Part shown: piece after piece, positions 8,625-28,662 of the stretch
Layout of the letters: every line of letters begins with the position of its first letter
Position numbering within the stretch: position 1 is the stretch's first letter
Virus record (IMG/VR): IMGVR_UViG_3300044540_000018
Span: 1 to 35,993 of that record
Reading direction: 5' to 3' (one strand)
Source of the DNA: a virus
DNA length: 35,993 bases
Notes under the pieces: model-generated
Told to the model about the DNA's origin: nothing
The model's input: only the letters and a program-made list of their open reading frames with translations
The model's database searches: none
Made by a program: the position numbers and the translations under genes

Positions 8625-8707
8625 GACAATGGCTAGGCTGATCCCCGAAAAAGATGACAACTCACCATCTCTGCCTTTGTCTACCTGTGAGATTGTTGGA
8701 GAACAAA
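8625..8707 (+). ncRNA. Pseudoknot leader of homing endonuclease, copy 1
   Basis: Helix A pairs GACAA plus AGGC (8625-8629 and 8635-8638, 5-nt bulge) with GCCTTTGTC (8673-8681). Helix B pairs CTCAC (8661-8665) with GTGAG (8687-8691), with extra CAA/TTG outside. The order A5'-B5'-A3'-B3' is an H-type pseudoknot. The linker carries CCGAAAAAGATG, and GGAG of the endonuclease start follows 7 nt after helix B. Related copies are at 26608 and 28575. No promoter was found just upstream, so it should be read from the terS transcript. Confidence 0.55.
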
Positions 8708-9568
8708 ATGAATAACCAAAAATTGAAAGACCACTACGTTTATTTCTTATATGATGCCGAGGGAACTGTGCGATATGTCGGCATGGGTAGGCAACTTCGC
8801 TATAAACGCACACAGGAAAGGTCTGGTGAATTCCTAGAGGTCTTGAATAACGGCGGATACTTTTCATTTCCGCACGAGAATTTAGACAAGATGGAAGCAC
8901 AGAAATTTGAAGCAGACTATCTTCGAGAACACGTTGGTGTTATTTCTGAAGGATGGAACCTTGTAAATAAAGTCAAGTCAAAAACAAGCTATGTTGACAT
9001 TACGTACGAAGACTTATCAAAGTATGTAGAGTTGTCTGAAAATAGTCAAACGAGTCTGGTGTGGAAAGATGATAATGTTTTAATGGGTCTTAGTAAAAAA
9101 GCAAATACAATTAAAAAAGGCTTACAAGCAGGATGGCCTACATCAAAAAGTCATTACGGTGGTATTCAAATAAATAAAAGAACAGTTCCGATACACCGTG
9201 CTCTCTGGGTAATGTACAACAAAAAGGATTTACCGTGGTATCTAGTTGTTAACCATATTGACTCCGACATTTTTAATAACTCAAAAGAGAATTTGGAAGC
9301 TGTAACATTCTCAACAAATAGTAAGAAGAAAAAGAAACAACACAATAATTCTACAGGTCACGTGGGAGTTGCTTTTTCAAAGACAGTGCAGACATATGTA
9401 GCTCACATCTATATTGATGGTAAGCGCAAAGATAAGAACTTCAGTGCCAAGAAATATGGGGAGGCTGCTTTAGATATGGCTATACAGTGGCGAAAGCAGA
9501 TGGAAGAACTGCATTACCAAGACAAATATATAACTCACGAACTTAGTAGAAAGGTTGAAAATGAGTAA
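8708..9568 (+). CDS. Homing endonuclease with GIY-YIG, HNH and AP2 parts
   Basis: A 286-residue free-standing endonuclease. The start at 8708 is chosen because GGAGAA lies 6 nt upstream. An ATG 54 nt earlier (8654) lies inside the leader and has no ribosome site. GIY-YIG domain: VYFLYD (11-16), RYVGMG (22-27), an arginine-rich helix, and a probable catalytic Glu near 66-69. HNH part: VPIHRALW with His163, VVNHIDSD with His183, then NSKENL. AP2 DNA-binding part about 217-268 (TGHVGVAFSK...KKYGEAALDMAIQWRK). Two nuclease domains in one homing enzyme is unusual. It sits between terS and terL and its last 8 nt overlap the terL start. It may cut intronless terL alleles (inference). Confidence 0.85.
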   Translation: MNNQKLKDHYVYFLYDAEGTVRYVGMGRQLRYKRTQERSGEFLEVLNNGGYFSFPHENLDKMEAQKFEADYLREHVGVISEGWNLVNKVKSKTSYVDITYEDLSKYVELSENSQTSLVWKDDNVLMGLSKKANTIKKGLQAGWPTSKSHYGGIQINKRTVPIHRALWVMYNKKDLPWYLVVNHIDSDIFNNSKENLEAVTFSTNSKKKKKQHNNSTGHVGVAFSKTVQTYVAHIYIDGKRKDKNFSAKKYGEAALDMAIQWRKQMEELHYQDKYITHELSRKVENE

Positions 9569-9659
9569 AGAAGAACCCTACGTACTTGCACCAGCTAGCG
9601 TGCCTCAGATGCACTTCCTAGCATCTGACTCCAACATTACGCTGTACGCAGGTAGTGCT
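9561..9659 (+). CDS. terL: terL exon 1 (residues 1-33)
   Basis: Encodes MSKEEPYVLAPASVPQ to ITLYAGSA. It ends with the T of GCT, the U needed at a group I 5' splice site. The last six bases AGTGCT pair with the intron's guide GGCACT. Confidence 0.88.
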
Positions 9660-11560
9660 AAACACTAATCTGGCACTTAACCCATCTAATTCGGTGAAAC
9701 CCTAACGTAAAGACGAGGGCAACGCCGAGCAAACCTCAAGCCCCTTGTGAGCTTTTGGTGTGTGTAGAGACTATCGAAAGCACTTAACTGGAAGCAAGTA
9801 GAGTAGGCTGCAAGCGCAGTCGAAACGATGGGGTGTTAATAAACACAAGACATAGTCCGACAATCTGGGAAACCGGAGAAATGCTGTAGCGAGTATAAAA
9901 CTGTAAAGGGAGCAGGTAAGACATTTGCCATTATCATCAGCCTTGTCAAGTATGCGTTGATGAAGAACACAACTGCGATTGTGTTTCGTCGCACTTCCAC
10001 TGATATTCGGTCAGGAGGTGGTATCTGGCAAGAAGCGACAATGGTTTTTAAAAGAATGTTTGGTAAAAAGGTTATCATCAGAAATCGTGACCTTGAGATA
10101 TATCTACCGGACACTAACTCAAGTATCAAATTTAGTCACTTGCAGCACATATCAGACGTAAACAATCATTTGGGTAGACTTGTGCCCAACCAGTGAGTAA
10201 TTGCTGGATATAAAACTTCTCTAATTCGGTGAAACTCTCCCTGAGACAATACCGAGCCAAGCCTAGAAATAGGAAGGTGTAACGACTAGGCGTGAGCCGT
10301 AGTGACAAGTGTCACGAAATGGGAAGCCCTCTAACGAGGTGAAGATATAGTCTTAACTGTATAGCGATATACAGCAGCTAAAGCGAACAATGATTAACGA
10401 CCATTGTTGAAAATAAATTGGCGCAGTACTCATATATCGTCTTTGATGAGGCGGTGACGTTTGATTTTGAGCAAATGATTTTACCACTAATGGCACGACT
10501 TCGTAACGCCAATGTGGATTACACACCAAGGATGGCTTGGTGTACCAACCCGAAATACGATCATGGTATTTACCACTGGATTAAAGACTTTTACCTTGAC
10601 AGTGAAGGTATCCCGCTTGACGATAAATCAAACGTGGAGAGATACTTTGTACTTCAGAACAACAAACCACTATGGTTTGATCGCAGAGAAGATGCTGAAC
10701 TAATTTACGGTAGTGGCGCAGACAGCGGTGTGCGCAGCTTCAAAGCAATTAAGGCACACGTATCTCAAAACATACCATTGCTAAAATCTCAACCAGATTA
10801 TTTGTCGAATCTAAAGGCTTTACCTGACGTAAAAAGACGAATCTACCTCGAAGGCTCATGGACAGCTAGAGAAGAAGAAGCAGGGCTGTTCTTGAGGGGT
10901 ATGATTACTCGTGTTGAACATGCAAACTTCAAAGCTAAAAAGCGTGTTCGTTGTTTCGACCTTGCTAGTCAACCTGTAAGTACTCAAAGCCCAAATCCAG
11001 ACTGGACACGCGGTCTACTTATGAGTAAAGACGATAACGGTGTTTATACAGTTGAGGATGCTGTTAGCGTAAGAGACAGACCTCATATTGTTGAACAACT
11101 TATTTTTGAAACAGCTAAAAAAGACAAAGAGCTTTACGGCAGTGTAACATACGGCTACCCTATTGATCCGGGACAGGCTGGTATTGCCAGAGCCAATGAA
11201 ATGAAGCGAAAACTTGCCGAAATTGGTGTTAACTGTAAACTTATCAGGCCTCATAAATCAAAAAGAACTCGTTTCTTACCATTCAGTGCTATTGCAGAGG
11301 CTGGGTATATTAACGTAGTAATGGATGACTGGAACGAGGAATACTTTGATGAGCTAGAAGAATTTACAGGCCTTCGTAGAGGTGAGAGAGATGATTTTGT
11401 TGACGTTTCTTCAGACTGTGTTTATTTATTGAACATGGGAATAGAACTCCCATCCTTCCACCTCCCATCTGACCTAACCACAGGTACATCCTTCGGTTTC
11501 CAACAATCAGACATTCCCTCAGATTTAGTACAAAGTCTAACCGCAGGTGAATTTACTTAA
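9561..11560 (+). CDS. terL: Terminase large subunit, three exons split by two group I introns
   Basis: Exons 9561-9659, 9909-10175 and 10421-11560 join to an unbroken 501-residue packaging ATPase-nuclease. Residue 31-38 GSAGAGKT is Walker A, completed only by splicing exon 1 (GSA) to exon 2 (GAGKT). The QMHFLAS segment before it is the adenine-binding Q motif. Walker B is YIVFDEA (127-133), just inside exon 3. The RNase-H-like nuclease follows: CFDLA, a middle segment YPIDPGQAG, and GERDDFVDVSSD. Without splicing, exon 1 stops after three intron codons. Exon 1 overlaps the endonuclease stop by 8 nt, and its ribosome site would be inside that gene. The product cuts concatemers and pumps DNA into the prohead through the portal (next gene). 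Confidence 0.92.
9660..9908 (+). ncRNA. Group I intron 1 in terL (249 nt, no ORF)
   Basis: P1: exon AGTGCT pairs with guide GGCACT (9672-9677), with the U-G wobble at the splice site. The core word TCTAATTCGGTGAAAC (9685-9700) is shared with intron 2. P7: GACTAT (9769-9774) pairs with ATAGTC (9852-9857). The last base is G (9908). Removal restores the Walker A codons in frame. Its small size and lack of an ORF mean that mobility would need an endonuclease in trans. Confidence 0.9.
9909..10175 (+). CDS. terL: terL exon 2 (residues 34-122)
   Basis: Starts GAGKTFAIIISLVKYALM and ends ISDVNNHLG. Exactly 89 codons, ending in GGT whose T is the 5' splice-site base of intron 2. It carries the rest of Walker A and the TAIVFRRTSTDIR strand-helix of the ATPase. 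Confidence 0.88.
10176..10420 (+). ncRNA. Group I intron 2 in terL (245 nt, no ORF)
   Basis: P1: exon TTGGGT pairs with guide GCCCAA (10184-10189), ending in the U-G wobble. TCTAATTCGGTGAAAC recurs at 10220-10235. P7: GACTA (10284-10288) pairs with TAGTC (10348-10352). The last base is G (10420). The join gives NNHLG-AQYSYIVFDEA, the usual spacing before Walker B. The shared core marks it as a sister of intron 1. Confidence 0.9.
10421..11560 (+). CDS. terL: terL exon 3 (Walker B and nuclease domain)
   Basis: Begins AQYSYIVFDEAVTF directly after the intron's terminal G. 379 residues to the TAA. The in-frame TTG at 10418 lies in the intron and is not a real start. It holds Walker B and the metal-binding acidic residues of the nuclease. 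Confidence 0.9.
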   Translation, partial: AQYSYIVFDEAVTFDFEQMILPLMARLRNANVDYTPRMAWCTNPKYDHGIYHWIKDFYLDSEGIPLDDKSNVERYFVLQNNKPLWFDRREDAELIYGSGADSGVRSFKAIKAHVSQNIPLLKSQPDYLSNLKALPDVKRRIYLEGSWTAREEEAGLFLRGMITRVEHANFKAKKRVRCFDLASQPVSTQSPNPDWTRGLLMSKDDNGVYTVEDAVSVRDRPHIVEQLIFETAKKDKELYGSVTYGYPIDPGQAGIARANEMKRKLAEIGVNCKLIRPHKSKRTRFLPFSAIAEAGYINVVMDDWNEEYFDELEEFTGLRRGERDDFVDVSSDCVYLLNMGIELPSFHLPSDLTTGTSFGFQQSDIPSDLVQSLTAGEFT

Positions 11561-11583
11561 TTTAATTAAAGGAGAAGCCTAGT

Positions 11584-13056
11584 ATGGCTAGAGCTAAACA
11601 GACTGAAGCCATTGAAAAGGCTTCTTCTCTTGATACACCAGATAGATTTAGACTAGGTGAAATCGGTTACAACGCTGTTCGTCTTTTCAATGGTGTAAGC
11701 AACGAAGAACTGAAGAAAGAACTGAATCATCCTAATGCTATCAGGACTTATCGTCAGATGAGCCTTCACCCTAGCATTAACTCAGCTTTGAATCTGTATA
11801 ATTGCATGATTAGCAAAGCTAAGTTCAGGGTTATGCCTCCGAAGGATTATACAGAAGACGAAAAGAAGAAAGCTGAGATTGTAACTCAGATGCTTGATGA
11901 TATGGAACATAGCATGGATGACTTCATTAGTGAAGTTATGACTATGAGTGTTCATGGTTTTTCTGTTATTGAAAAAGTATATCGCAGGCGTACAAAAGCA
12001 GCAGGTAGTATGTACGATGATGGCTTGATTGCACCTCGTAAACTCAAGCTGCGCAGCCAAGAGAGCATTGAGAAGTTCATTATGTCTGACGATGGTAATG
12101 ACGTTCTTGGTGTTAAGCAGAATATCTCTTGGTTGCACGACCCTTATGGTTTTCATGCCAAGAGACTTGAGAATGAAGTAATCCTACCTCGTTCTAAGTT
12201 CATGCTGTTTAACATCGGTAGAAACCGCAGCAATCCTTATGGTACTTCTCCTTTGAGAGATGTGTACCTACCTTGGAAATACCTGCAAGCTATTGAAGAG
12301 CTAGAAGCCACTGGTGTTTCTAAAGACCTTCAAGGTATTCCTTTGCTAAGACTTCCTGCGCAGTATATGTCAGCAGATGCAAGTCCTGACCAGAAGATTG
12401 TTTACGAAAACTTTAAGAATATTGTTCGTAACCTTCAGCAAGGTAGCCAAGCTGGTGTGATTCTCCCGAGTGCTGTTGACCCTGAGACTCGTAAAGAGTT
12501 GTTTGATTTGCAACTGCTTTCTAGTGAAGGTAAGAAATCATTTGATACAGCAGCCATTAAGGACTATTACAGAACAATGATTTTCATTGGTTTGTCTGCT
12601 GATATTCTTTTGATGGGTAATACTCAAACAGGCAGCTTTGCTCTTGGTTCTTTGAAGAACAGTATTACAGGTAATGCTATTGAGAATTACTTGCGTAGAA
12701 TTGTTCAAGTTCTGAATGATGACTTGATTCGTCAAATCTATGAATTGAATTCATGGGATGTTACTCGCAGATGCAAGGTTGATTACGAAGGCTTTGAAGA
12801 GACTGATCTTGATGATTTCCCTCGTGCAATTCAGCGTATGGGTGCTGTCGGCTTCCTACCTAAGACTCACGATGTTGTCAACAGAGTTCTTGGTGCATTG
12901 GGTGTTGACCCACTGGATGATGATGCTGACCTTAATGAACTTCTCGGAGATAACGAAAGTAGAGTCGGGGATGGAATGAAAGAAGGATTGGGTTCAGGTA
13001 CAGGTAAAGCTGTATCAAGTGACGATAGTTCTGTTTCTAATAAAGAAAACGCCTAA
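11584..13056 (+). CDS. Portal protein
   Basis: A 490-residue portal, the dodecameric ring at one head vertex through which DNA passes and to which the terminase and neck dock. Its size, the position directly after terL (23 nt, AAGGAG before ATG) and typical segments support this: an N-terminal helical wing (LHPSINSALNLYNCMI), the middle SKFMLFNIGRNRSNPYGTSPLRDVYLPWKY, and a long stem helix region LKNSITGNAIENYLRRIVQVLNDDLIRQIYELN. The last 45 residues are Ser/Gly/Asp-rich and probably disordered. A terminator follows at 13113. Confidence 0.85.
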   Translation: MARAKQTEAIEKASSLDTPDRFRLGEIGYNAVRLFNGVSNEELKKELNHPNAIRTYRQMSLHPSINSALNLYNCMISKAKFRVMPPKDYTEDEKKKAEIVTQMLDDMEHSMDDFISEVMTMSVHGFSVIEKVYRRRTKAAGSMYDDGLIAPRKLKLRSQESIEKFIMSDDGNDVLGVKQNISWLHDPYGFHAKRLENEVILPRSKFMLFNIGRNRSNPYGTSPLRDVYLPWKYLQAIEELEATGVSKDLQGIPLLRLPAQYMSADASPDQKIVYENFKNIVRNLQQGSQAGVILPSAVDPETRKELFDLQLLSSEGKKSFDTAAIKDYYRTMIFIGLSADILLMGNTQTGSFALGSLKNSITGNAIENYLRRIVQVLNDDLIRQIYELNSWDVTRRCKVDYEGFEETDLDDFPRAIQRMGAVGFLPKTHDVVNRVLGALGVDPLDDDADLNELLGDNESRVGDGMKEGLGSGTGKAVSSDDSSVSNKENA

Positions 13057-13067
13057 CCTAAGAAGAC

Positions 13068-13096
13068 TTGCAATTATAATCAAGCTATGCTATAAT
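13068..13096 (+). promoter_or_regulatory. Promoter placed just ahead of a terminator
   Basis: TTGCAA (13068-13073), 17 bp, perfect TATAAT (13091-13096). Transcripts would start near 13103 and meet the terminator stem at 13113 within about 10 nt, which is odd. Only read-through or a short RNA would result unless termination is suppressed. Confidence 0.55.
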
Positions 13097-13112
13097 TATT
13101 ATAACTAATAAA

Positions 13113-13139
13113 CCTGCCCTTCGGGGCAGGCTTTCTTTT
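13113..13139 (+). terminator. Rho-independent terminator after portal
   Basis: CCTGCCC-TTCG-GGGCAGG (13113-13130) with a stable UUCG tetraloop, then CTTTCTTTT. Confidence 0.9.
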
Positions 13140-13169
13140 GTCTTAAATAATAACAACAAAGGAGTGCAA

Positions 13170-14909
13170 ATGCCTTGGAATGCAAGCAATGTACCTGATT
13201 CAGTCAAGAATAAATCGTTGCACTTGCGTACCCTGTTTAGCAAAGTTGCTAATGCTGCACTTGATAAAGAACAAACAGAAGAAGAAGCTGTATTCGCTGG
13301 TTTAGCAGCGGCACGCAATGAAGAGAATAAGAATAAACCAAAAGCTATCAAAAAGGAAGCTAACAAGCTACCTGCGCACATTCAGGCTGTACTAGATGCT
13401 CGTAAGAACGCACTAGAACGCCCTATAAGCGATTTAAATGCACAAGGTAATACCCACGTAGCCAAAGCTACTGAAAACGCCTCTACGGTCGTTTTAGAGC
13501 CTTCTAGAGAGCTTGTGGATGCTGAGTTCAACACCAAGGGACAGCTTGTCCTGAAGTTTGATAACGGTGAAAGAATCGTTACCGATGAATCAGCAATCAA
13601 AGAATACATTGAAAACCATGTAGTTGTTACGGGTAATCAAGGTAGGCAATTTCAAGCAATGAATGAACCTACTGGTTTTGAAGATAGAGTCTCTTCTGAA
13701 CTTGATTTTGATGTTTCAACTAGAACCTTTGCAGTATCTGCTGTTGAGCAATACTTCACTGTGTGGCTTAAAGGTTTTGAATACACAAAACAATCTGATT
13801 CTGTTGTACTACCTAACGTAACAGCAGAATACTTTATTTACTACGATGCTACTGATGCTGTATTAAAGCAGACTGTAGTAGCTAATGAAAGTCTCTTTAG
13901 AAATAATGCTCTTGTTGGTATTATTTATTGGAGAGCAGATACTCAAGAATATGTTTACTTTGCTGACGAACGGCATGGGATTACAATGGATGGAGCAACT
14001 CATGCTCATTTGCATTTATCCCTTGGTGCGCAGTACAGAAAAGGTCTTGCTCTTACAAATATAACAAAAGATGCTTCTGGTAGCCTAGATAGTCATAGTA
14101 CATTTGCTTGTACTGACGGTGCTATTGCTGACGAAGATATTACTATTGATATAGTCAATAACTTACCACAGCAGTTGAGTTCTGTTGCACAACTACCTGT
14201 TTACTACAGAGTAGGTTCTGGTGCTAATTGGTATAGAAAACTACCTGATAACTTTCCACTGATTCAACCCGGAGATGTAAGTGCTTATGTTGGTACTACA
14301 AGGGTTGCTTACAATCATGAGTCAGCGGGGTTTTGGTTGCTTGATGAAGTTCCAAACAATCAGTACGTATTGATTCATGTTCTAGCAACCAATGATGTTG
14401 AATACCCTGTTGTTGCTGTGTGCGGTAATACTTACCAAACCAAAGCAGATGCGAGAGAAGGTGCTAATACTGAACTTGCTAATATTACAGGACTACCTTT
14501 CGCTGAGTTTGTAAGACTTGGTACGGTAATCTACCAATCTGCTAACAGTTATTCAAACACAACAAAGACAAGAATTGTAAGTACATCTGAAGGTGCTAAT
14601 TACATTGACTACAGAAGACTGACAACCTATACACCTTTGAATTCAGGTGCTACAGGTGCTCCTGCTGAGATTCCAGCTAACGTAGTTAGAGGGTATTATA
14701 CAGAAGTAAGTACAAGTGCTTACACTCCTTTAGTTATTAACCACAACCTAGGTCTTATTAACAGAAACAGTTTCACAATAGGTGCAACTTACCTGAATCA
14801 AAGTGTTCAGATTGAAGTAGAGAGTATTGATGGTAGTTCTATACGAATAGAGACTGCTATTGATGTTCCTCTTTTGAGTATTACTATTACAGGAATGGTG
14901 GCAGTTTAA
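13170..14909 (+). CDS. Structural protein with N-terminal ChaB-like domain
   Basis: 579 residues. The ATG at 13170 is preferred over the in-frame GTG at 13164, because that GTG overlaps the Shine-Dalgarno AAAGGAG. Residues 1-55 (MPWNASNVPDSVKNKSLHLR...EEEAVFAGLAAARNEENK) match the ChaB fold pattern, which in phages is often fused to or encoded near head proteins. Residues 60-110 are low-complexity Lys/Ala-rich. The rest is beta-rich, with VYFADERHGITMDGATHAHL and a C-terminal barrel-like part (VINHNLGLINRNSFTIGA), as in virion appendage proteins. It lies between portal and fibre-like genes, so it is probably a virion component, and the next gene starts 1 nt after it. Confidence 0.65.
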   Translation: MPWNASNVPDSVKNKSLHLRTLFSKVANAALDKEQTEEEAVFAGLAAARNEENKNKPKAIKKEANKLPAHIQAVLDARKNALERPISDLNAQGNTHVAKATENASTVVLEPSRELVDAEFNTKGQLVLKFDNGERIVTDESAIKEYIENHVVVTGNQGRQFQAMNEPTGFEDRVSSELDFDVSTRTFAVSAVEQYFTVWLKGFEYTKQSDSVVLPNVTAEYFIYYDATDAVLKQTVVANESLFRNNALVGIIYWRADTQEYVYFADERHGITMDGATHAHLHLSLGAQYRKGLALTNITKDASGSLDSHSTFACTDGAIADEDITIDIVNNLPQQLSSVAQLPVYYRVGSGANWYRKLPDNFPLIQPGDVSAYVGTTRVAYNHESAGFWLLDEVPNNQYVLIHVLATNDVEYPVVAVCGNTYQTKADAREGANTELANITGLPFAEFVRLGTVIYQSANSYSNTTKTRIVSTSEGANYIDYRRLTTYTPLNSGATGAPAEIPANVVRGYYTEVSTSAYTPLVINHNLGLINRNSFTIGATYLNQSVQIEVESIDGSSIRIETAIDVPLLSITITGMVAV

Positions 14910-14910
14910 T

Positions 14911-15282
14911 ATGGCTCAGAAAAGATTCCTAAGTTCCATTGAATTGCCTGAAGTCACTGATTTGGATTCAAACCCTATCGGTGGCTTTAAGCGCCTATAT
15001 GCAAGTGCTGATAGGTTGCAAGTTAAAGATTCAACAGGTGCAGAGAAAAGTATTTGGTTTGAAGACAAGTTCTCAAGTGCCAATGAAAGCAATCCTGTAT
15101 ATACCTATACTCTTGGTGATATTACTCGCATTGACTACGCATCTGGAAATTACAAGTTGTTTACTTATTCTTCAGGTAATCTAACTCAATTAGACTTCGT
15201 AAAAGGTTCTGTAACTTACAGAAAAACATTTATTTACGATACTAACTCAAACCTAACATCAATTGTGTATTCAGTTTTGTGA
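14911..15282 (+). CDS. Small virion-associated protein, 123 aa
   Basis: Starts one base after the preceding stop, so it is translationally coupled. The segment GGFKRLYASADRLQVKDSTG is of a type seen in phage tail or head appendage proteins. The second half has YD-like beta repeats (ITRIDYASGNYKLFTYSSGN, then YRKTFIYDTNSNLTSIVYS). Probably a small fibre or adaptor component. No enzyme motif. Confidence 0.55.
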   Translation: MAQKRFLSSIELPEVTDLDSNPIGGFKRLYASADRLQVKDSTGAEKSIWFEDKFSSANESNPVYTYTLGDITRIDYASGNYKLFTYSSGNLTQLDFVKGSVTYRKTFIYDTNSNLTSIVYSVL

Positions 15283-15364
15283 TAACTTGTACCTGTCAAG
15301 ACTCTGAAGTATTTAGAATAATTTACTAATCATCTTTGATGCTTTTAGAATATAGAAGGATAAT

Positions 15365-20994: not shown

Positions 20995-21011
20995 TTCAAT
21001 AGAAAGGTATT

Positions 21012-21302
21012 ATGCAAGACGTAATCAATTTTACACCAGAACAAATCAACTCCCTACCTCGTGGTGAAGTAAGATACACTCTGTTTAGACTTAGAGCTGG
21101 AAATCCAGAGCAGAGTCATTACCAGATTCTGAATCATTTTATTCCTCGATTAAACCGATACAATCTAGCTATTTCAGAGTTTTCTGAAACTTGGGATATT
21201 TCCAAGACAGGCAATACCGATATTGTATCTGGGCACGTTGTTCATTTGTTTAAAGAAGAAGCTAAGTCTTTGTTCAATGAAGACGGTACACTAAAGGAAT
21301 AA
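21012..21302 (+). CDS. Hypothetical protein, 96 aa
   Basis: First gene after the repeat-flanked promoter, with GAAAGG upstream of ATG. Compact mixed helical protein (FTPEQINSLPRGEVRYTLFRLRAG...HVVHLFKEEAKSLF). No family recognised. It ends 3 nt before the next start, in a run of virion genes, so it may be a small structural or assembly factor. Confidence 0.6.
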   Translation: MQDVINFTPEQINSLPRGEVRYTLFRLRAGNPEQSHYQILNHFIPRLNRYNLAISEFSETWDISKTGNTDIVSGHVVHLFKEEAKSLFNEDGTLKE

Positions 21303-21305
21303 TCA

Positions 21306-22658
21306 ATGGCATACGTACGAGTTCCTCCAGACGGAGCAGGTAAAAAGGTATATAGTAGAACACAAACAGTTGGTGCTGACTCTGTAGAAACTCAAGTAAT
21401 GCACTTGGCTGATAGTAACACACCTACTCAACTTCTTGCTGTAGATGGCAGAGGTGCAGCCTCTGTTCGATTTGCAGAAGGTCAACCTATTATGGGTGGC
21501 TTTGGTTCTTTGAAAACAACTCACGAACATCCTTTGGGTGTTTATGAATCATCTCTTGACACTTACAGTTCGTTGTTTACAGTAACAACTGCAACTGGTG
21601 GTGCATTGACTTATGATGCTGTTGGTTCTAGCGAGGTGCTGTCAACAACATCTGCTTCTGGTAGTTCTGTAAAACTAACAACCAATCGCTATCATTACTA
21701 CCTTCCTGGTAGTGCAAATCTCTATAAGATGACTATTTCTTGCGGAGATACAGGTAAAGCAAATAACGTAAGACGATGGGGGGCCTTTGATACAAACGAT
21801 GGGGCATTCTTCTGCTTGCATAATACAAACCTTCAAGTTGTATTGCGTAATAGCACATCTGGTTCTGTTGTTGAAACAGCAGTGAATCAAGCTAACTGGA
21901 ACGTGGATAAACTAGACGGTACAGGCTTGTCTGGGCACGTTCTTGATATTACAAAAATCAACGTATGGTGGTTGGACTATCAATGGCTTGGTGCAGGTCG
22001 TTGTAGATTTGGTATCTACCTACCAGACGGTACTCGTTTGGTTTGTCACGAGTTTAAGAACGCTGGTGCTAACACCCTTCCGTTCATGCGTACAGGTACA
22101 CTACCTATCAGTACAGAAAATACCAACACAGGTATTACAGGTTCTACTTCAGAATTGCGCACGGTATGCTTGTCGGCATATACAGAAGGCAACTTTCAGG
22201 ACTACGCCTATTGGCGTTTTGCTGATATTGATGCAAATAACGTTAGTGCAGTTACTAATACTCCTCTTGCTAATATCAGAGCAGTCGCTACGGTTAATTC
22301 AAAACATAACTCAGTTATTATTTACCCAGAGACATTGAATGTTTATTGCAATGAACCTGTTGCAATTACCCTCTGGCAAGCTACTTCTGTAACAGGCGGG
22401 ACATGGACTTCCTTGGCTAGTATCGGTGAAGTTAACTATGGTGGTACTGTCAGTACAACTGGCTCACAGAAGTTCAAGACATTGTACTTCCCTGCTGGTG
22501 CTACAAGTATAGACCTTGATAAGTTCTTTGAGAAGAATGACGAAGGTATCTTGATGAACGCAGATGGTACTTATGAAGTATGGTCTGTTCTGGCTACTAG
22601 ACTAACAGCTAATGCGACAACTGTATCTATGAACATTGGCTACAAGGAGTTGTGGTAA
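21306..22658 (+). CDS. Virion structural protein, lectin-like beta domain
   Basis: 450 residues. The central part contains RRWGAFDTNDGAFFCL, a repeated V-x-R-N-S-T-S-G-type strand, WNVDKLDGTGLSGHVLDITK, and WLDYQWLGAGRCRFGIYL. I know this set of motifs from virion proteins of large phages, where a concanavalin-like beta sandwich is suspected. The N-terminal 80 residues (DGAGKKVYSRTQTVGADSVETQ) act as an attachment region. It is encoded just before a tail-type protein with which it overlaps by 1 nt. Probably displayed on the particle. Role in adsorption not shown. Confidence 0.65.
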   Translation: MAYVRVPPDGAGKKVYSRTQTVGADSVETQVMHLADSNTPTQLLAVDGRGAASVRFAEGQPIMGGFGSLKTTHEHPLGVYESSLDTYSSLFTVTTATGGALTYDAVGSSEVLSTTSASGSSVKLTTNRYHYYLPGSANLYKMTISCGDTGKANNVRRWGAFDTNDGAFFCLHNTNLQVVLRNSTSGSVVETAVNQANWNVDKLDGTGLSGHVLDITKINVWWLDYQWLGAGRCRFGIYLPDGTRLVCHEFKNAGANTLPFMRTGTLPISTENTNTGITGSTSELRTVCLSAYTEGNFQDYAYWRFADIDANNVSAVTNTPLANIRAVATVNSKHNSVIIYPETLNVYCNEPVAITLWQATSVTGGTWTSLASIGEVNYGGTVSTTGSQKFKTLYFPAGATSIDLDKFFEKNDEGILMNADGTYEVWSVLATRLTANATTVSMNIGYKELW

Positions 22659-23134
22659 TGCTAATGCTTTGGTCAGCCTATGGCGACCAATGGAGTAATA
22701 ATCATAAAGTAAACTTCGATGGTGTTAATAAGTTGATAACCATATCACCCTATGTTAGCACCATTGACGTTAAAGTAGATTTGTATAGCGCAATGAAGGA
22801 ATGGTTGCAGTTGTATGACAACGCTAAGTTCCTTCCTGCTATTCGTACTATCGGTGGCGACCCTGTGGGTTTAGGTAAATACGCAGGTGACATTTACTTT
22901 TTGATTAACGGTTGGCAAGTTGTAATTGACCATTACATTGAAATTCAAGGTACTTTGTATAATGACTCAGGAGCTAGTCCTTACATTATTCAACCCGGTG
23001 GTGGTGTTGTTGCTACTGTATCTAACCTCGCTTACTCTATTGAAAGCGCAACAGGTGGATTAACACCTGAACAAGAAATACAATTAGACAAGATTCTGAA
23101 AGCAGTAAAGACAGCGATTGCTTTGTCTGCCTAA
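22658..23134 (+). CDS. Structural protein of the NGW/GGDP type
   Basis: About 158 residues from the ATG at 22658, which overlaps the previous stop by one base. AAGGAG lies 9 nt upstream, while an in-frame GTG at 22652 is less likely. Motifs VNFDGVNKLITI, VDLYSAMKEWLQL, RTIGGDPVGLGKYAGDIYFLINGW and a C-terminal helix PEQEIQLDKILKAV match a conserved small phage virion protein family whose exact place in the particle I cannot state. It closes the fibre group. Confidence 0.6.
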   Translation: MLMLWSAYGDQWSNNHKVNFDGVNKLITISPYVSTIDVKVDLYSAMKEWLQLYDNAKFLPAIRTIGGDPVGLGKYAGDIYFLINGWQVVIDHYIEIQGTLYNDSGASPYIIQPGGGVVATVSNLAYSIESATGGLTPEQEIQLDKILKAVKTAIALSA

Positions 23135-23150
23135 TAACTTATAGTTGTTA

Positions 23151-23219
23151 TAACTACCTTCTAAATAAAAAAGACTTGACATTAAATCTGTTGAATGTTA
23201 TTATATTAGAAGGTAGTTA
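23151..23219 (+). promoter_or_regulatory. Promoter inside a 14-bp inverted repeat
   Basis: TAACTACCTTCTAA (23151-23164) and TTAGAAGGTAGTTA (23206-23219) are perfect inverted repeats. Between them are consensus -35 TTGACA (23176-23181), 17 bp and TATTAT (23199-23204). It starts the head morphogenesis genes. Same layout as 20943-20994 but a different arm sequence. Confidence 0.7.
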
Positions 23220-23255
23220 ATTAGTTAATTAACCCACAGAATTAAGGAGACTTGG

Positions 23256-24020
23256 ATGGTAGAATTATTTAAGCCAACACAAGCCGTTAAGAACAATTCT
23301 CTGCGAGGGGTTGCATTGTTTGAGAAAGCTAAATCATTAGCAAGTCAAACAGCTAGGGATAAAGTAAAGCCATTTACTGAACAGATTTCAAAAGGTGCCT
23401 TGTCACTTGATGAAGTAAAACAACTGTATTCATTCCTAACTAAAGCAGAGCAAAAATACCAACCCAATAAAAGACTTGAAGGTAACAACGTAGATAGCGA
23501 TACCGCAGCGTTTCTTGCTGCTGGTGGTTCTAGCGCATTAGCATGGACTAGACTGGTTCTGAAAGAACAAGGTATTGTTAAGAGTTACAAGAAAGAAATT
23601 ACTCAAGCTGAACTTGATAATGAAAATGAATTGCAAGGTTTGAAGTTGCCTGTTACTAAAGCAGTCAATGAAGAATTACAACAAGCTACATTTATAGTAA
23701 TGGCACCAGACGAAGTTGACCTTCATGGCGATATTACTTCAGAGGATGAAGTTCGAAAGGCTTGTCACAATTTCAACAAATTCTGCCAAAAAGCCAATCT
23801 ATTTCATTTGGTTCAGACAGATACTTTCGAATTCGTAGAGTCGTATATAGCACCTACTGATTTTGTCCTTGGTGATAAATTCGTAAAGAAAGGTACATGG
23901 CTTTGTACAGTTCAATGCTTGAATGACGGACTTTGGGAATTGATTAAATCAGGCGATATTAACGGAGTTTCTATTGGTGCAATGGCTTCAGTAGAAAACT
24001 TAGAAAAGGATGATGAATGA
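23256..24020 (+). CDS. Prohead protease, XkdF-like
   Basis: 254 residues, AAGGAG before ATG. The C-terminal half carries the protease features: ATFIVMAPDEVDLHGDI (His in the VDxHGD position), HNFNKFCQKANLFHLV, and GVSIGAMA with the likely catalytic serine, in the order of the XkdF/S78-like prohead proteases. The N-terminal 110 residues are helical (LYSFLTKAEQKY, then a segment ending LVLKEQGIVK) and may contact the scaffold. The next gene starts in an ATGA overlap and looks like the scaffold. The enzyme would cleave scaffold and capsid during head maturation. Confidence 0.8.
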   Translation: MVELFKPTQAVKNNSLRGVALFEKAKSLASQTARDKVKPFTEQISKGALSLDEVKQLYSFLTKAEQKYQPNKRLEGNNVDSDTAAFLAAGGSSALAWTRLVLKEQGIVKSYKKEITQAELDNENELQGLKLPVTKAVNEELQQATFIVMAPDEVDLHGDITSEDEVRKACHNFNKFCQKANLFHLVQTDTFEFVESYIAPTDFVLGDKFVKKGTWLCTVQCLNDGLWELIKSGDINGVSIGAMASVENLEKDDE

Positions 24021-25036
24021 CAACACAAACAAAAGCCAAGAAACGCTTGAGTAACATACAGTTCGATAGCGCAGGTGCTCACGTTGCTTTGGTTTCTAAA
24101 GACCAAGGCGGCCCCGCTAACGGTCATGATTACGCATTGGTACTGAAGGCTTCCAATTTCTCTGATGAATTCGTGCAGAAGGTTCAACAAGTGAAGGTAA
24201 CAATGGAGTTGCCAGATTTCCTTCAGAGATTTTTCCACATATATTACGAAGATTCCCAAGTTCTTGCTCGAATGATGGGTTACGTACAACCAGAAGCAGA
24301 AGAAGTGGAAGTTGATGAAGATTGGTATGAAAACTATATTCAATCCAAACTTGAATCTTTTGAAATTCTAAAAGCAGCTTACGAAGCTGATAGTCTAGCA
24401 GATGTTTTGTCTGCCTTGAAAGAGGACGAATACTTGGCGATACTTCAAGATCAAGCCAAGATTGAAAAAGCCTTCAAGAAAATAGACAAACAAAGTAAAG
24501 AATCTAAACCTGTTGCTAAACAAGCAGCGGTAGACGATACCTCAAAGATCGACGTCGAGGTTAAACAAGAAGAAGAGGTATCTGCCTCTGTGTTAAAACA
24601 AGCAAATAAGGAAACCGTAATGACTCAAGAAGTGAAAACTGTTGAGCAAGAAGTGACCGTAGAGATGGTAGAGAAAGCTGCATTTGAATCCGTGCAAAAA
24701 GCATTGGATGAACAAAAGGTTGCTCTGCAAAAAGCTATGGAAACCATTGCTCAGTTTGAAGCTGAGAAGAAAGCTGCTATTGAAAAAGCTCGTAAGAGCG
24801 AAGTTCTGGCTGCTGTGAAGGATGAAGGTAAGGCTGAAGTATTGTTCAAGGCTGTTAAGGATGCAGATGCTGCTGACTTTGAAGCTGTTGTCAAGGCTTT
24901 GCAAGAACTGACTGCTGCTGCTGATAAAAGCGATCTTTTCGTTGAAAAGGGTGCAAGCGGTGAAGCTGAAGTTAAAAAAGAAGAATCTGCTGTTGAGCGT
25001 CTGCTAAAAGCTAAGTACGCCAAGCAAGGTAAGTAA
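24017..25036 (+). CDS. Scaffold or capsid assembly protein
   Basis: 339 residues, coupled to the protease by ATGA. The first 140 residues are a folded domain (GAHVALVSKDQGGPANGHDYALVLK, then DEDWYENYIQSKLESF). The rest is acidic and Lys/Glu/Ala-rich with long coiled-coil helices (VALQKAMETIAQFEAEKKAA), the classic make-up of a scaffold. It is followed by the decoration and capsid genes. A second start inside the gene (24620) may make a separate scaffold core, as lambda does with C and Nu3. Confidence 0.7.
   Translation: MTTQTKAKKRLSNIQFDSAGAHVALVSKDQGGPANGHDYALVLKASNFSDEFVQKVQQVKVTMELPDFLQRFFHIYYEDSQVLARMMGYVQPEAEEVEVDEDWYENYIQSKLESFEILKAAYEADSLADVLSALKEDEYLAILQDQAKIEKAFKKIDKQSKESKPVAKQAAVDDTSKIDVEVKQEEEVSASVLKQANKETVMTQEVKTVEQEVTVEMVEKAAFESVQKALDEQKVALQKAMETIAQFEAEKKAAIEKARKSEVLAAVKDEGKAEVLFKAVKDADAADFEAVVKALQELTAAADKSDLFVEKGASGEAEVKKEESAVERLLKAKYAKQGK
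24620..25036 (+). CDS. Possible internal-start scaffold core (residues 202-339)
   Basis: In-frame ATG at codon 202, preceded by AAGGA with 7 nt spacing (AATAAGGAAACCGTA). It would yield a 138-residue coiled-coil protein starting MTQEVKTVEQEVT, just where the folded N-terminal part ends. Nested translation is inferred and not proven. Confidence 0.4.
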   Translation: MTQEVKTVEQEVTVEMVEKAAFESVQKALDEQKVALQKAMETIAQFEAEKKAAIEKARKSEVLAAVKDEGKAEVLFKAVKDADAADFEAVVKALQELTAAADKSDLFVEKGASGEAEVKKEESAVERLLKAKYAKQGK

Positions 25037-25062
25037 TCTAGTATTATTAAAGGAAAAATATA

Positions 25063-25479
25063 ATGTCCCTCGTATCCACTGATACTAAGCGTCTGTCGAA
25101 TCTGCTGAAAGCAGAACTGTGGGCAGAACACGGTTACTGCCGTGAAGTCGTGATCGTCAACGAAGCTGCTGCTAAGACCTATGCTGTAGGTACTGTGCTT
25201 GGCAAAGTAACCGCTGGTGGTAAGTACAAAATCTGTGTACAAACCGCTGTAGACGGTTCGCAAACTGCTGCTGCTATTGTCTTGGAAGACAAAGCTATTG
25301 CTGCTACTACCGATACCAAATTGGTTGTTTTGGTCAAAGGCCCAGCCTCTATTAACAAGGGTGGTTTGGTTCTGGATGCTTCGCATGACCAGCAAGGTGA
25401 GAAAGATGCTATCTATGCTGCATTTGAAGCAAAAGGTATTCAGTGTCTGGATCAAGTTGGCGTTGCCGCTTCAGCCTAA
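25063..25479 (+). CDS. Head decoration protein (lambda gpD-like)
   Basis: 138 residues, AAAGGA before ATG. The pattern NLLKAELWAEHGYCREVVIVNEAAAKTYAVGTVLGKVT...VLVKGPASINKGGLVLD is that of lambda gpD-type beta-tulip trimers that clamp the capsid surface after expansion. It is directly upstream of the capsid gene, as in lambda. Ends in low-complexity GVAASA. Confidence 0.88.
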   Translation: MSLVSTDTKRLSNLLKAELWAEHGYCREVVIVNEAAAKTYAVGTVLGKVTAGGKYKICVQTAVDGSQTAAAIVLEDKAIAATTDTKLVVLVKGPASINKGGLVLDASHDQQGEKDAIYAAFEAKGIQCLDQVGVAASA

Positions 25480-25509
25480 TTGATTAAATATAACTAATAA
25501 GGAAAAAAT

Positions 25510-26535
25510 ATGCCTATTATTCGTTCTTATGGTAATCCCTTTGAAGTTGTGGATTACACGGCTGAATTGTCACTGATTCCGCTTGCCCCTACTCTGTTGA
25601 ATGACGCAGGTTTGTTTGCTGAAGAGTTCCTCAGCACTCACACTGTAACCTTTGAGAAAAACTCTCAGAGCATTGGCTTGATTGGTGACACATACCGTGG
25701 TTCCAAGCCTCAAGCTAACAACGATGACACTCGTGAAATTCATAGCTACCCATTGGCTCACTTTGCCGTTACCGATGCGATTCTGCCTGCTGATTTGCAA
25801 GGAAAGAGAGCATACGGTAACACCGATGCTGCTGAGACTGAAGCTGCTGTAATGGCTCGTAAAATGGAGCGCATTCGCAAGTCTTTCGATCAGACTTTGG
25901 AAGCTGCCCGTTTCAGTACCTTGACAACAGGTAATGTTTTTGCACCAAACGGTACTATCGCTGGTAACTTCTTCTCTGACTTTGGTGTTACCCAAACGTC
26001 TGTGAACTTCTCCTTGGACACAGCAGGTACTGATGTTGTTGCTAAAGTTGAAGCTGTGATAGCTTCGATGCAAGATAACGCAAACACCGGTGACGTTATC
26101 ACTGGTTTGATTGCTTACTGCTCACCTGAGTTCTTCGCATCCTTGATTTCTCACGCCAAGATTCAAGCTGCTTACCAATACTTCTCAGCTACCGAAGGTC
26201 AAATGATCCAACGTAACCGTGCTGGTGGTAACAACGGTTTGTACCGCGAATTCTCCTACGCTGGTGTACGTTTCGTTGAAGTGCGTCAAAGCATTGGCGG
26301 CAGTCGTTTGATTCCTGCCAACGAAGCTGTGTTTGTTCCTATGGGCACCTCCGACACTTTCGTGACTTACTTCGGCCCTTGCTCGAAGTTGGACTTTGTT
26401 AACACTGTTGCTGAACGCACTTACATGTTCCAATACAAGTCACCCAAGGGTGAGAGCATTGAGATTGATGCGTCGAGCGATTTCATTAACGTTCTTCGTC
26501 GTCCAAAACTCGTGATCAAAGGCATTCGTAACTAA
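25510..26535 (+). CDS. Major capsid protein (lambda gpE-like, HK97 fold)
   Basis: 341 residues, AAGGAA before ATG. The N-terminus shows LIPLAPTLLNDAGLFAEEFL. A middle helical spine contains ARKMERIRKSFDQTLEAARF. The C-terminal part reads EVRQSIGGSRLIPANEAVFVPMG, then ERTYMFQYKSPKGESIEIDASSDF. Length and order match the lambda gpE family. Its wobble positions are richer in C (for example TTC, AAC, GCC) than in neighbouring genes, consistent with high expression. A hairpin follows the stop. Confidence 0.92.
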   Translation: MPIIRSYGNPFEVVDYTAELSLIPLAPTLLNDAGLFAEEFLSTHTVTFEKNSQSIGLIGDTYRGSKPQANNDDTREIHSYPLAHFAVTDAILPADLQGKRAYGNTDAAETEAAVMARKMERIRKSFDQTLEAARFSTLTTGNVFAPNGTIAGNFFSDFGVTQTSVNFSLDTAGTDVVAKVEAVIASMQDNANTGDVITGLIAYCSPEFFASLISHAKIQAAYQYFSATEGQMIQRNRAGGNNGLYREFSYAGVRFVEVRQSIGGSRLIPANEAVFVPMGTSDTFVTYFGPCSKLDFVNTVAERTYMFQYKSPKGESIEIDASSDFINVLRRPKLVIKGIRN

Positions 26536-26557
26536 TCATTGATTAGATTATAACTAG

Positions 26558-26584
26558 ATAGGGTTGTTAACTCAGCCCTATTTA
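26558..26584 (+). terminator. Hairpin after major capsid gene, likely attenuating terminator
   Basis: ATAGGGTTG (26558-26566) pairs with CAGCCCTAT (26573-26581), one G-U, loop TTAACT, then TTTATG. The T tract is short. Its left arm contains the -35 element of the promoter below. Confidence 0.5.
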
Positions 26585-26593
26585 TGATATAAT
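26564..26593 (+). promoter_or_regulatory. Promoter reading into the leader and AP2 relic
   Basis: TTGTTA (26564-26569), 18 bp, TATAAT (26588-26593). It would start RNA about 8 nt before the pseudoknot leader at 26608 and continue to the neck genes. Confidence 0.6.
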
Positions 26594-26607
26594 TTACTTT
26601 TATGACA

Positions 26608-26690
26608 CAGACTAGGTTCGCTACCGAAAAGCAGATCATCCACCTGCCTGTCTGCTGTTTATATCGTGGATTTGTTTTAGGGATGAAACA
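26608..26690 (+). ncRNA. Pseudoknot leader, copy 3 (on the relic)
   Basis: Helix A: CAGAC-[T]-AGGT (26608-26617) pairs with GCCTGTCTG (26646-26654). Helix B: ATCCAC (26638-26643) pairs with GTGGAT (26666-26671). The linker holds CCGAAAAG, and AGGG lies before ATG 26691. Same topology and the same core words as the leaders of the two intact endonucleases. Confidence 0.5.
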
Positions 26691-26694
26691 ATGA

Positions 26695-26799
26695 AAAAGA
26701 AGAAACAAATCCTTCAACGTGAACAAATACGGCGAAGCCGAAGCCTCCCGTCTAGCTTGCGCGTGGCGCAAGAGTATAGAAGAAGAGCATTACAAATAA
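26695..26799 (+). pseudogene. Relic of an AP2-type homing endonuclease
   Basis: After an in-frame TGA (26692-26694), 34 codons read KRRNKSFNVNKYGEAEAS, then CAWRKSIEEEHYK, stop. This matches the AP2 tail of the endonuclease at 8708 (KRKDKNFSAKKYGEAALD...WRKQMEELHYQ). The rest of the gene is missing, so a deletion has joined the leader to the last codons. The frame opened by ATG 26691 is different and would give an unrelated arginine-rich peptide. 26800-26872 holds an 8-bp hairpin AAATCGTA/TACGATTT (26815-26841) and no gene. Confidence 0.7.
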
Positions 26800-26872
26800 C
26801 GAATCAACCTTCACAAATCGTATTACAAGCTAGTACGATTTCTAAAGGTAACTAGATAAATAAAGGACAATT

Positions 26873-27286
26873 ATGGCACTGACTGCAATACAACAAGTGA
26901 GGTTATTGATTCAGGATAATTCTCCCGGTCTGTATATCATCTCTGATGATGAAATAAACTTCTTCCTTGAAAGAAATAGCAATAACATCAATAGAACAGC
27001 CGTTGAAGCTGCCAAGGTTGTCTTACTTAACCTTAGTATGCGTTCCGACACTTCAACCGATATTTTAAGCATCAAAGGTTCTAAAGCAGCAGAAGCATAC
27101 CGATTAGCTCTTGAGTTGTTCATCAAATCTCCTGACCTTAATCCCGTTCTTCAAAACACTTCAGGCTACGCTGGTGGTATCAGTATAGCAGATATGCAAG
27201 CTAACGTAGATAACCTAGACAACAATATCGTTGTAGTTCCTGCTGCTGATTCTGAAGTAAGTACAAGTAGCTTCTTTACTGTCTAA
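26873..27286 (+). CDS. Head-tail connector (adaptor) protein
   Basis: 137 residues, AAAGGAC before ATG. Starts with the pattern LTAIQQVRLLIQDNSPGLYI, then SDDEINFFLERNSNNINR and AAKVVLLNLSM. These helices are those of phage head-completion adaptors that sit beneath the portal. It is the first of four neck genes with the standard order adaptor, stopper, tail completion, tail terminator. Confidence 0.75.
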   Translation: MALTAIQQVRLLIQDNSPGLYIISDDEINFFLERNSNNINRTAVEAAKVVLLNLSMRSDTSTDILSIKGSKAAEAYRLALELFIKSPDLNPVLQNTSGYAGGISIADMQANVDNLDNNIVVVPAADSEVSTSSFFTV

Positions 27287-27294
27287 GGATTTAT

Positions 27295-27651
27295 ATGAAT
27301 CCTTTTATCAGTTCAGCTAAACAACTTATCAACCTTCATGGAGTTAGTTGTACTTATACTACAGTAACCGAAGGTACTTACGATGTTGAAACAGGTTCAG
27401 TAACCAATACAGAAGCTAATGCGACTGTAGTTGCTTACCCTAAGCAAGTAAAAGTTAATCAGTATAACTACCCTAACCTAATAGGTAAGACAGTTACTGA
27501 ATTCTTGGTACTAGCTTCTGACTTTGTTACTAAGCCAAACCCAAGAGATAAGATTACTCTATCTGGTGATGTTTATAGCATTGAGCAAGTCTCCGAGCAT
27601 TATGCAATGCAAGAAAAAGTTATTTATAAAATACTTGCTTGTAGGGGTTGA
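27295..27651 (+). CDS. Head closure (stopper) protein, probable
   Basis: 118 residues, AAGGATTTAT before ATG. Beta-rich (VSCTYTTVTEGTYDVETG...LVLASDFVTKPNPRDKITL, then YSIEQVSEH), as in head-closure proteins that plug the portal channel after packaging. Assigned by size, strand pattern and place between the adaptor and the tail-completion gene. No catalytic motif. Confidence 0.6.
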   Translation: MNPFISSAKQLINLHGVSCTYTTVTEGTYDVETGSVTNTEANATVVAYPKQVKVNQYNYPNLIGKTVTEFLVLASDFVTKPNPRDKITLSGDVYSIEQVSEHYAMQEKVIYKILACRG

Positions 27652-27653
27652 GT

Positions 27654-28136
27654 ATGAAAATAACTTGTAATACATCTAAATTGCAAAAGCAATTACAACA
27701 ACTTAAACTAGATGTTACTCGCAAGTTAGAGAACATGGTTAGAGAGTTTGCTTATCATGTAAGCCTTAGTGCTATTGCTAATACACCTATTGGTAATTCT
27801 GTTACTTACAGAAAATACTACGAAGCAAGAACTGATTTACCTCAAGTTGAAGGTCTATCCAAAGGTAACTGGCAGTACGGTAACAGTCCTAATTTCAGTC
27901 TTCGTAAGATAGCAGGGCAAGCTGCTGGTGCTGCCGCCTTGGATAACATCCTAGTAGCTGCTGAAGGCTACAAACTAGGTCAGAGATTCTACATAGGTAA
28001 TGCTACACCTTATATCATGGCTTTGGAAAACAACCACAGCCCTCAGACTCAAGGGCAAGGTATTATGCAGCCTACACTGAATACCATCCAAGGTGTTTAT
28101 TCTTTACAACTAGATGATTATTACAAGAGAGGGTAA
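27654..28136 (+). CDS. Tail completion or neck protein, HK97 gp10-like
   Basis: 160 residues from ATG 27654 (AGGGG 6 nt upstream), 2 nt after the previous stop. An in-frame TTG 6 nt earlier is less likely. The N-terminal helix LQKQLQQLKLDVTRKLENMV and the later motif FYIGNATPYIMALENNHSPQ match the gp10-like family (iaN-x-tPYa-x-x-lE-x-G-x-Sp). It joins the neck to the tail tube end. Confidence 0.75.
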   Translation: MKITCNTSKLQKQLQQLKLDVTRKLENMVREFAYHVSLSAIANTPIGNSVTYRKYYEARTDLPQVEGLSKGNWQYGNSPNFSLRKIAGQAAGAAALDNILVAAEGYKLGQRFYIGNATPYIMALENNHSPQTQGQGIMQPTLNTIQGVYSLQLDDYYKRG

Positions 28137-28138
28137 AC

Positions 28139-28537
28139 ATGCCTGTATTGTCAGCAAAGAAAGCCTGTGAACGAAGACTGTCTACGCTAAGTTTACCCAC
28201 AGCTTATGAAGGTATAAGTTTTACACCTCCTTCTGGTTTGTACTTAGCTACTCAGCTTAAGGTGAATACACCAGATGAACCAACAATAGGTGATACATAC
28301 TACAGAGAAAGAATTACTTTTCAAGTATTCGTCTGTGACGTATTGAATAAAGGAACAGGTAATGCTCTTGCTGTTGTTGAACAAGTGAGAGACTTATTCC
28401 CTAAAGGTTTAACTCTAACTGAAGGTGCTTACACAATTCATTTTTTAAATCAAGCAAGTGTCAAAGGTTCTGTAGTGACAGAAGACAGGCTTGTGTATCC
28501 AGTGATGATTGATATGTTTGTTGAGGTTTATAGTTAA
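28139..28537 (+). CDS. Tail terminator protein
   Basis: 132 residues, GAGAGGG before ATG. Short N-terminal helix (KKACERRLSTLSLPTAYEG), then ITFQVFVCDVLNKGTGNALAVVEQVRDLFPKGLTL, the strand-helix pattern of lambda gpU-type terminators that cap the tube at its final length. Position between the gp10-like gene and the tail tube agrees. Confidence 0.7.
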   Translation: MPVLSAKKACERRLSTLSLPTAYEGISFTPPSGLYLATQLKVNTPDEPTIGDTYYRERITFQVFVCDVLNKGTGNALAVVEQVRDLFPKGLTLTEGAYTIHFLNQASVKGSVVTEDRLVYPVMIDMFVEVYS

Positions 28538-28540
28538 GAT

Positions 28541-28569
28541 TTGATATTATACCGAAGCTGTGGTATAAT
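28541..28569 (+). promoter_or_regulatory. Promoter overlapping an 8-bp inverted repeat
   Basis: TTGATA (28541-28546), 17 bp, perfect TATAAT (28564-28569). The spacer is palindromic: ATTATACC (28546-28553) with GGTATAAT (28562-28569), so the -10 lies in the right arm. RNA would start close to the leader copy 2. Confidence 0.7.
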
Positions 28570-28574
28570 TAGGT

Positions 28575-28662
28575 ACTAGGCTACCTTTAGCGGGGGAAAA
28601 GATGCTTCATCACCATCCTGCCTAGTTTTCATTAGTGATGCTAGTCCTTGATGGAGGCTGAT
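28575..28662 (+). ncRNA. Pseudoknot leader of homing endonuclease, copy 2
   Basis: Helix A is a perfect 7-bp stem, ACTAGGC (28575-28581) with GCCTAGT (28620-28626). Helix B: CATCAC (28608-28613) with GTGATG (28635-28640). The linker has GGGGGAAAAGATG, close to copy 1. GGAGG (28653-28657) follows helix B by 12 nt and precedes the TTG start. Confidence 0.6.

Follow-up and report, generated by a model that had tools for sequence, protein, structure and literature searches.

The window analysed here is the whole of IMG/VR virus record IMGVR_UViG_3300044540_000018 (35,993 bases), and it carries three copies of a structured RNA element, each directly in front of a homing endonuclease locus and all on the plus strand. 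An earlier note had described these copies, at 8625-8707, 26608-26690 and 28575-28662, as one pseudoknot leader shared by three endonuclease loci. A covariance model (R1), built from an alignment of 65 related elements that excludes the window (A2), matches the window at 28574-28627, 8626-8680 and 26605-26657 only (50.5-51.2 bits, E about 4e-13), bearing out three homologous structured leaders at these places. Each copy is predicted to fold as a three-way junction in which a closing stem, P1, surrounds a hairpin, P2, the linker GAAAA and a second hairpin, P3, whose 9-nt loop can pair with either of two downstream sites, the second of them at the Shine-Dalgarno (SD) sequence of the following gene.

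The core of copy 3 (28574-28627; R1 51.2 bits, E 3.2e-13) lies behind a promoter-like TTGATA-N17-TATAAT (28541-28569, 11/12 matches), and a transcript starting about 7 nt past that box would begin at the 5' base of P1. P1 is formed by 28575-28581 with 28620-28626, P2 occupies 28584-28595 in a flipped form (CC..GG), GAAAA follows at 28596-28600, and P3 (28601-28604/28614-28617, GATG/CATC) presents the loop CTTCATCAC at 28605-28613. Site 1, GTGATG (28635-28640), pairs with CATCAC of the loop, and site 2 (28649-28657) contains TGATGGAG at 28649-28656, which pairs with loop CTTCATCA (one G-U pair included) and overlaps the SD GGAGG at 28653-28657. The gene that follows (28663-29415) encodes, from a TTG start, a protein of 250 aa that is of GIY-YIG type by eye (YTYVLHKNDGTPFYVGVG) and has no Pfam match at E 0.1.

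In copy 1 (core 8626-8680; R1 50.7 bits, E 4.4e-13), P1 (8626-8633/8673-8680) leads through UA (8634-8635) into the P2 hairpin (8636-8646), GAAAA (8647-8651) and P3 (8652-8656/8666-8670, AGATG/CATCT), which carries the loop ACAACTCAC at 8657-8665 and is followed by CT at 8671-8672. CTCAC, at the 3' end of this loop, pairs with site 1, GTGAG (8687-8691), and loop CAAC pairs with GTTG (8695-8698) in site 2 (8695-8701), where it abuts the SD GGAG (8698-8701). Endonuclease gene 1 (8708-9568, 286 aa) has an N-terminus that is GIY-YIG-like by eye, an HNH_3 match above the Pfam cut-off (29.1 bits) and an AP2 match of 32.3 bits, just under the cut-off of 33.3.

Copy 2 (core 26605-26657; R1 50.5 bits, E 5.1e-13) also has a promoter-like element just upstream, TTGTTA-N18-TATAAT (26564-26593), and consists of P1 (26608-26612/26650-26654), P2 (26615-26625), GAAAA (26626-26630) and P3 (26631-26634/26644-26647, GCAG/CTGC) with the loop ATCATCCAC at 26635-26643. 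Loop ATCCAC pairs with site 1, GTGGAT (26666-26671), and loop TCATCC pairs with GGATGA (26681-26686), which the SD AGGGA overlaps within site 2 (26679-26686). The leader is intact and present, as at the other two loci, but the gene behind it is a wreck: relative to L034 and L051 (the intact relative used for comparison has 253 aa), about 645 nt of a GIY-YIG/HNH/AP2-like endonuclease gene have been deleted, and the remnant (26691-26799) retains the start codon and, in another frame, an AP2 tail (Pfam match). The RNA of copy 2 lies within a block 98% identical to L034.

All three copies match the Rfam family int-alpA (RF02996), so that a named class exists for what the earlier note had taken to be without one. 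Copy 3 exceeds the gathering score of 35.8 bits in an Rfam scan (37.6 bits), and copies 2 and 1, for which 301 bases were scanned, align over all 71 model positions but stay under that score, at 32.9 bits (E 2.8e-5) and 30.3 bits (E 1.3e-4), respectively. R1 in turn recovers Escherichia coli members of int-alpA at 39-43 bits. The window copies share the P1/P2/P3 junction of that family, with P1 enclosing two hairpins, the first of them small, CGAAAAG between the two and CTG after them (core CTAG...CGAAAAG...CCTG), and, judged by sequence and predicted fold, they are either divergent members of int-alpA or closely akin to it. The family owes its name to a context between an integrase gene and alpA, which is not part of the Rfam model; this context is absent around the window copies, which have structural or terminase genes on one side and an endonuclease on the other. 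Rfam files int-alpA as a small RNA (sRNA) gene, whereas the element reads here as a leader whose pairing sites lie downstream of it. For the leaders, a group I intron, a tRNA-like RNA and a ribozyme were each considered and rejected, Rfam returning int-alpA alone, and C4 (RF01695) went unmatched around copies 1 and 2 (up to E 10) and, at gathering score, in copy 3. The family reportedly goes back to a motif paper of 2017; in the literature searched int-alpA is listed, without study, in one paper, no described role was found and RF02996 is unmentioned.

Relatives of the window were collected with its capsid protein (33 viral contigs) and with the protein of endonuclease gene 3 (one more, giving 34 records), and 12 of these records hold 15 RF02996 matches (E up to 0.05). 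A blastn search of the copy-1 locus against named phages gave no relatives, and the endonuclease proteins as IMG/VR queries gave none for one and one weak relative for the other. To avoid a bias toward particular neighbouring genes, IMG/VR and GTDB genomes were searched with DNA patterns of the core alone: the first pattern yielded at least 120 stretches, from which 80 loci were taken, the second yielded 109, and the genome search yielded 106, some of them by chance. A parser that demanded a P3 stem and P1 passed 223 elements, at almost no cost to the viral pattern sets and a greater one to the genome set, and removal of near-duplicates and of elements without a clear downstream reading frame gave a non-redundant set of 82 relatives.

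Throughout A2 the joints (UA, GAAAA and CU) hardly vary, and the stems between them covary strongly. Cells in P1/P2/P3 are paired in 84.8% of cases compared with 62.7% after shuffling, a percentage that the parser slightly favours for P1 and P3; double changes occur in 234 cells compared with 88.5 after shuffling; and the covariation score is 0.534, against 0.139 for shuffled and 0.08-0.14 for slid controls. P2 changes from GG/CC, its commonest form in A2, to CC/GG in copy 3 and in L040. The view put forward earlier that structure is kept rather than sequence is upheld, and the covariance-model search suggested there returned many further matches with strong covariation. The fold itself required redrawing. 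The pseudoknot stands, but P2 and P3 had been overlooked, and the 5' strand of what had been called helix B lies in the 9-nt P3 loop. Helix A as first drawn fits copy 3 (ACTAGGC/GCCTAGT) and is out of register in copies 1 and 2, where the AGG assigned to it forms the 5' side of the P2 hairpin; the true closing helix is P1, in which bases just 5' of TA pair with bases after CT.

The loop of P3 is complementary to two separate sites. Over the 82 relatives, mean complementarity of the loop to the region upstream of the SD region, which contains site 1, is 11.5, compared with at most 8.8 in 10,000 permuted pairings (z 16.3), and its mean complementarity to the SD region is 13.0, compared with at most 10.7 in as many permutations (z 14.4); the corresponding duplex energies give z -18.2 and -13.5. 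Helix B of the earlier note (CTCAC/GTGAG, ATCCAC/GTGGAT, CATCAC/GTGATG) is the loop-to-site-1 pairing and is firmly supported by these figures; the second target, at the SD (GTTG, GGATGA and TGATGGAG in copies 1 to 3), had escaped notice and is new here. Both sites are found together in 66 of the 82 relatives, compared with a mean of 15.5 and a maximum of 28 in 5,000 permuted pairings. At least three loop bases are common to both pairings in 65/66 cases, so that the two are mutually exclusive. E. coli members of int-alpA, reached only via the Rfam consensus, follow the same two-site logic (loop GCCTTA, site 1 TAAGGC, SD AAGG); in these members an integrase gene precedes the RNA, and behind the RNA come first a hypothetical gene and next a small gene of helix-turn-helix type.

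The spacing of these parts is closely held. Pairing at site 1 reaches the last 3' base of the loop (no unpaired bases on that side) in 65/74 cases and mostly leaves 1-4 free loop bases on the 5' side, which is the geometry of an H-type pseudoknot. From the end of P3 to site 1 the median distance is 17 (quartiles 16-18.75), held despite varying P1 length (P1 versus linker, rho -0.63); the two sites are separated by a median of 7, and the start codon lies a median of 42 from the end of P3 (quartiles 40-45). Upstream, -10 boxes cluster at -18/-17 from TAGG. A hairpin between linker and SD is no better than in permuted pairings across the family (z 0.2), and copy 3 alone could form one.

On this pattern of pairings, we consider it probable that the element is a cis-acting two-state pseudoknot leader that switches translation of the gene behind it. 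Each element would form the 5' leader of the following mRNA, with the three-way junction presenting the P3 loop. Pairing of the 3' part of the loop with site 1, some 17 nt past P3, would create the H-type pseudoknot, leave the SD free and permit translation, while pairing of the loop's middle or 5' bases with site 2, about 7 nt beyond site 1, would hide the SD and turn translation off. The conserved junction may tilt the choice between the two in response to a trigger, and phages would place such a leader ahead of genes whose timing or dose matters. Translation control had been among the functions proposed earlier and is a likely role, to which the SD-overlapping site, unseen at that time, adds a suggested mechanism.

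Translational output is plausible for the window genes because T4-type homing endonuclease genes (I-TevI/II/III, segB, mobE) are already held back by leader RNA hairpins that could block the ribosome binding site (RBS) (PMC2988022). The likeness extends to RNA structure in an endonuclease leader with the capacity to block the RBS; the T4-type structures, however, are local hairpins that include the RBS, whereas here a conserved junction reaches the SD through its loop.

Several observations weigh against the two-state leader. In 16 of the 82 relatives one or both sites are lacking at the threshold used, and site 2 of copy 1 is the weakest of the three in the window (4 bp, -3.9 kcal/mol). Nested folds of whole leaders in ViennaRNA, a tool unable to score pseudoknots, miss the junction. 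Among members found by covariance model in bacterial genomes, some have a single site or an uncertain start codon. Five elements (L180, L191, L192, L209 and L250) have an intact junction and have lost the adjacent target sites; a longer leader follows the RNA there, and then an AntA-type antirepressor gene, and these elements are perhaps recombinants or work in a different mode. Finally, complementarity alone does not separate action in cis from action in trans.

This last point bears on the main rival, a trans-acting antisense RNA of the C4/P4-CI kind, in which a processed or terminated RNA would pair through its loop with both sites on separate mRNAs and serve immunity or dose control. C4 RNAs (RF01695; C4 of phages P1 and P7, CI of P4) likewise have a closing stem around two hairpins and a loop that can pair with the SD of the gene behind them, and they act on phage immunity and replication genes. 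P4 CI, itself a member of the Rfam C4 family, has the same P1/P2/P3 layout and a loop matching a downstream SD (TTCACAGGAGG); RNase P cuts C4, and C4 loops bind upstream and RBS sequences (PMC5320573). The kinds of genes controlled overlap (antirepressors, primase-helicases), the linker after P1 is U-rich, and the sRNA classification in Rfam also speaks for this explanation. On the other hand, C4 uses two loops and P4 an upstream target, whereas the window element has one loop and two downstream sites, and its linkers and core differ from those of C4. Neither a P4-like upstream target nor a C4-like second pairing loop was found: complementarity of the loop is at chance upstream of the RNA (z -0.6) and in coding regions (z 0.4 and 0.4), as is that of the P2 loop (z 1.5). 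Moreover, a terminator-like site is absent at all three window elements, R1 gives no match to P4 CI, and the near-fixed distances from RNA to sites, together with site-1 pairing flush with the loop edge, point to a pseudoknot. Antisense action in trans is accordingly weighed as a possible but doubtful explanation.

A riboswitch would be a more specific form of the two-state switch: the junction would bind an ion or small molecule, and the site-1 pseudoknot, stabilised in this way, would expose or mask the SD. Our confidence in the riboswitch overlaps with that in the switch. The translational riboswitches preQ1 and SAM-II place an H-type pseudoknot near the SD and use mutually exclusive pairings, as the element does here; the element differs in matching no Rfam riboswitch and in standing before phage mobility and replication genes. 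The nearly invariant joints UA, GAAAA and CU, kept in phages and in genomes of several bacterial phyla, and the two exclusive pairings would suit a ligand-binding junction. Such conservation is equally explicable by protein binding or tertiary contacts, however, and the downstream genes have no common metabolic theme, which leaves a ligand-binding form of the switch rather unlikely. We would only tentatively extend the idea to a single, very widespread class of phage RNA, so far concealed behind an Rfam sRNA name that has drawn little study, which would sense the state of the host or of infection like an orphan riboswitch and would switch translation of antirepressors, replication proteins, integrases and homing endonucleases by shifting its loop between site 1, as a decoy, and the SD.

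A passive, static leader, whose pseudoknot merely protects the 5' end or tunes RBS strength without switching, would agree with a promoter position that would make P1 the very 5' end of the transcript, yet the second, SD-overlapping pairing has no role in such a leader and most members keep it; we regard this as improbable. Enzyme self-binding, raised in the earlier note, finds no support and is made less likely by the occurrence of one common core ahead of genes for unrelated proteins. A small self-cleaving ribozyme, likewise raised there, is very improbable, since the compact conserved junction and pseudoknot that might suggest one come with no match to an Rfam ribozyme family and with loop partners whose position goes with the SD and not with a fixed point of cleavage.

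The genes behind the element are of many kinds. They include HNH and GIY-YIG endonucleases, regulators with pRha, P22_AR_N, AntA or KilA-N domains, DUF927 primase-helicase-like and DUF1376 replication proteins, DnaB, integrases, a CapR-domain protein and a T7-like RNA polymerase, the counts of these kinds being skewed by the search patterns and not to be taken as frequencies. Named phages with the element are Edwardsiella GF-2, Enterobacter Tyrion, Salmonella BIS08P22, Pseudomonas IME307, Acinetobacter TRS1 (ahead of rha) and Rhizobium RHph_X2_25 (ahead of a Seg-like homing endonuclease). The T7-like phage RNA polymerase gene lies behind an element in a Phycisphaerae bin (L338:3468-5825). Specificity for endonucleases was rejected, most pattern-found relatives preceding other genes; the association with endonucleases is real, not exclusive, and dominant in the phage group of the window. 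The int-alpA family is thereby extended, in phages as well as in genomes from several bacterial phyla, to the leaders of eight or more kinds of phage genes, and a little-studied RNA class that had a name but, as far as could be found, no described role gains a testable function and mechanism. If the switch is real, lysogeny, replication and selfish genes in phages would come under one shared form of translational control, and if a ligand were found, the element would constitute a new riboswitch class in viruses.

Within the phage group of the window, the RNA moves with homing endonucleases as part of an inserted cassette. At the capsid site, eight relatives are empty, with a short gap that holds a terminator-like hairpin and, in many cases, a -10-like box before the next gene, and none of the eight has the RNA; where the site is filled by an insertion of about 1 kb, the RNA is present in 20 of 23 relatives (hypergeometric 2e-5 versus empty sites), lying 68-90 nt past the capsid stop, directly after a -10-like box and ahead of the endonuclease gene. 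At the copy-3 site the RNA is missing from the 20 empty relatives, whose gaps measure 65-128 nt; the one filled relative, L035, with a gap of 919 nt, has the RNA with a different gene (HNH-like by eye). At the copy-1 site, L020 has the RNA with yet another endonuclease-like gene. RNA and endonuclease are therefore read as one inserted unit in these relatives, with enzymes that differ at a single site. The earlier proposal that the leader travels with endonucleases of differing domain make-up is retained, and the element is not confined to such genes.

Three capsid-site insertions without the RNA (L026:11029-11220, L030:11026-11215 and L029:1509-1690) carry another structured-looking leader instead, with a CTTGCAG...CTGCAAG stem, hairpins and a long-range CATCCC/GGGAT or CAAGG/CCTTG match; the L026 leader matches no Rfam family, and its core word occurs in only three IMG/VR stretches. 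A truncated RNA element in L052 (1501-1546) has only an 11-aa reading frame behind it and is apparently a cassette remnant. Between capsid stop and RNA, L005-L035 have an inverted repeat around the spacer of a promoter-like sequence (e.g. CAAAGAATTCTCACAAGGAGTTCTTTG); repeats of this type precede filled and some empty sites and are possibly operators. In the window itself, a second intron-like stretch (9660-9910, no match at gathering score) lies just ahead of a group I intron within the large terminase gene (10166-10374, Rfam match).

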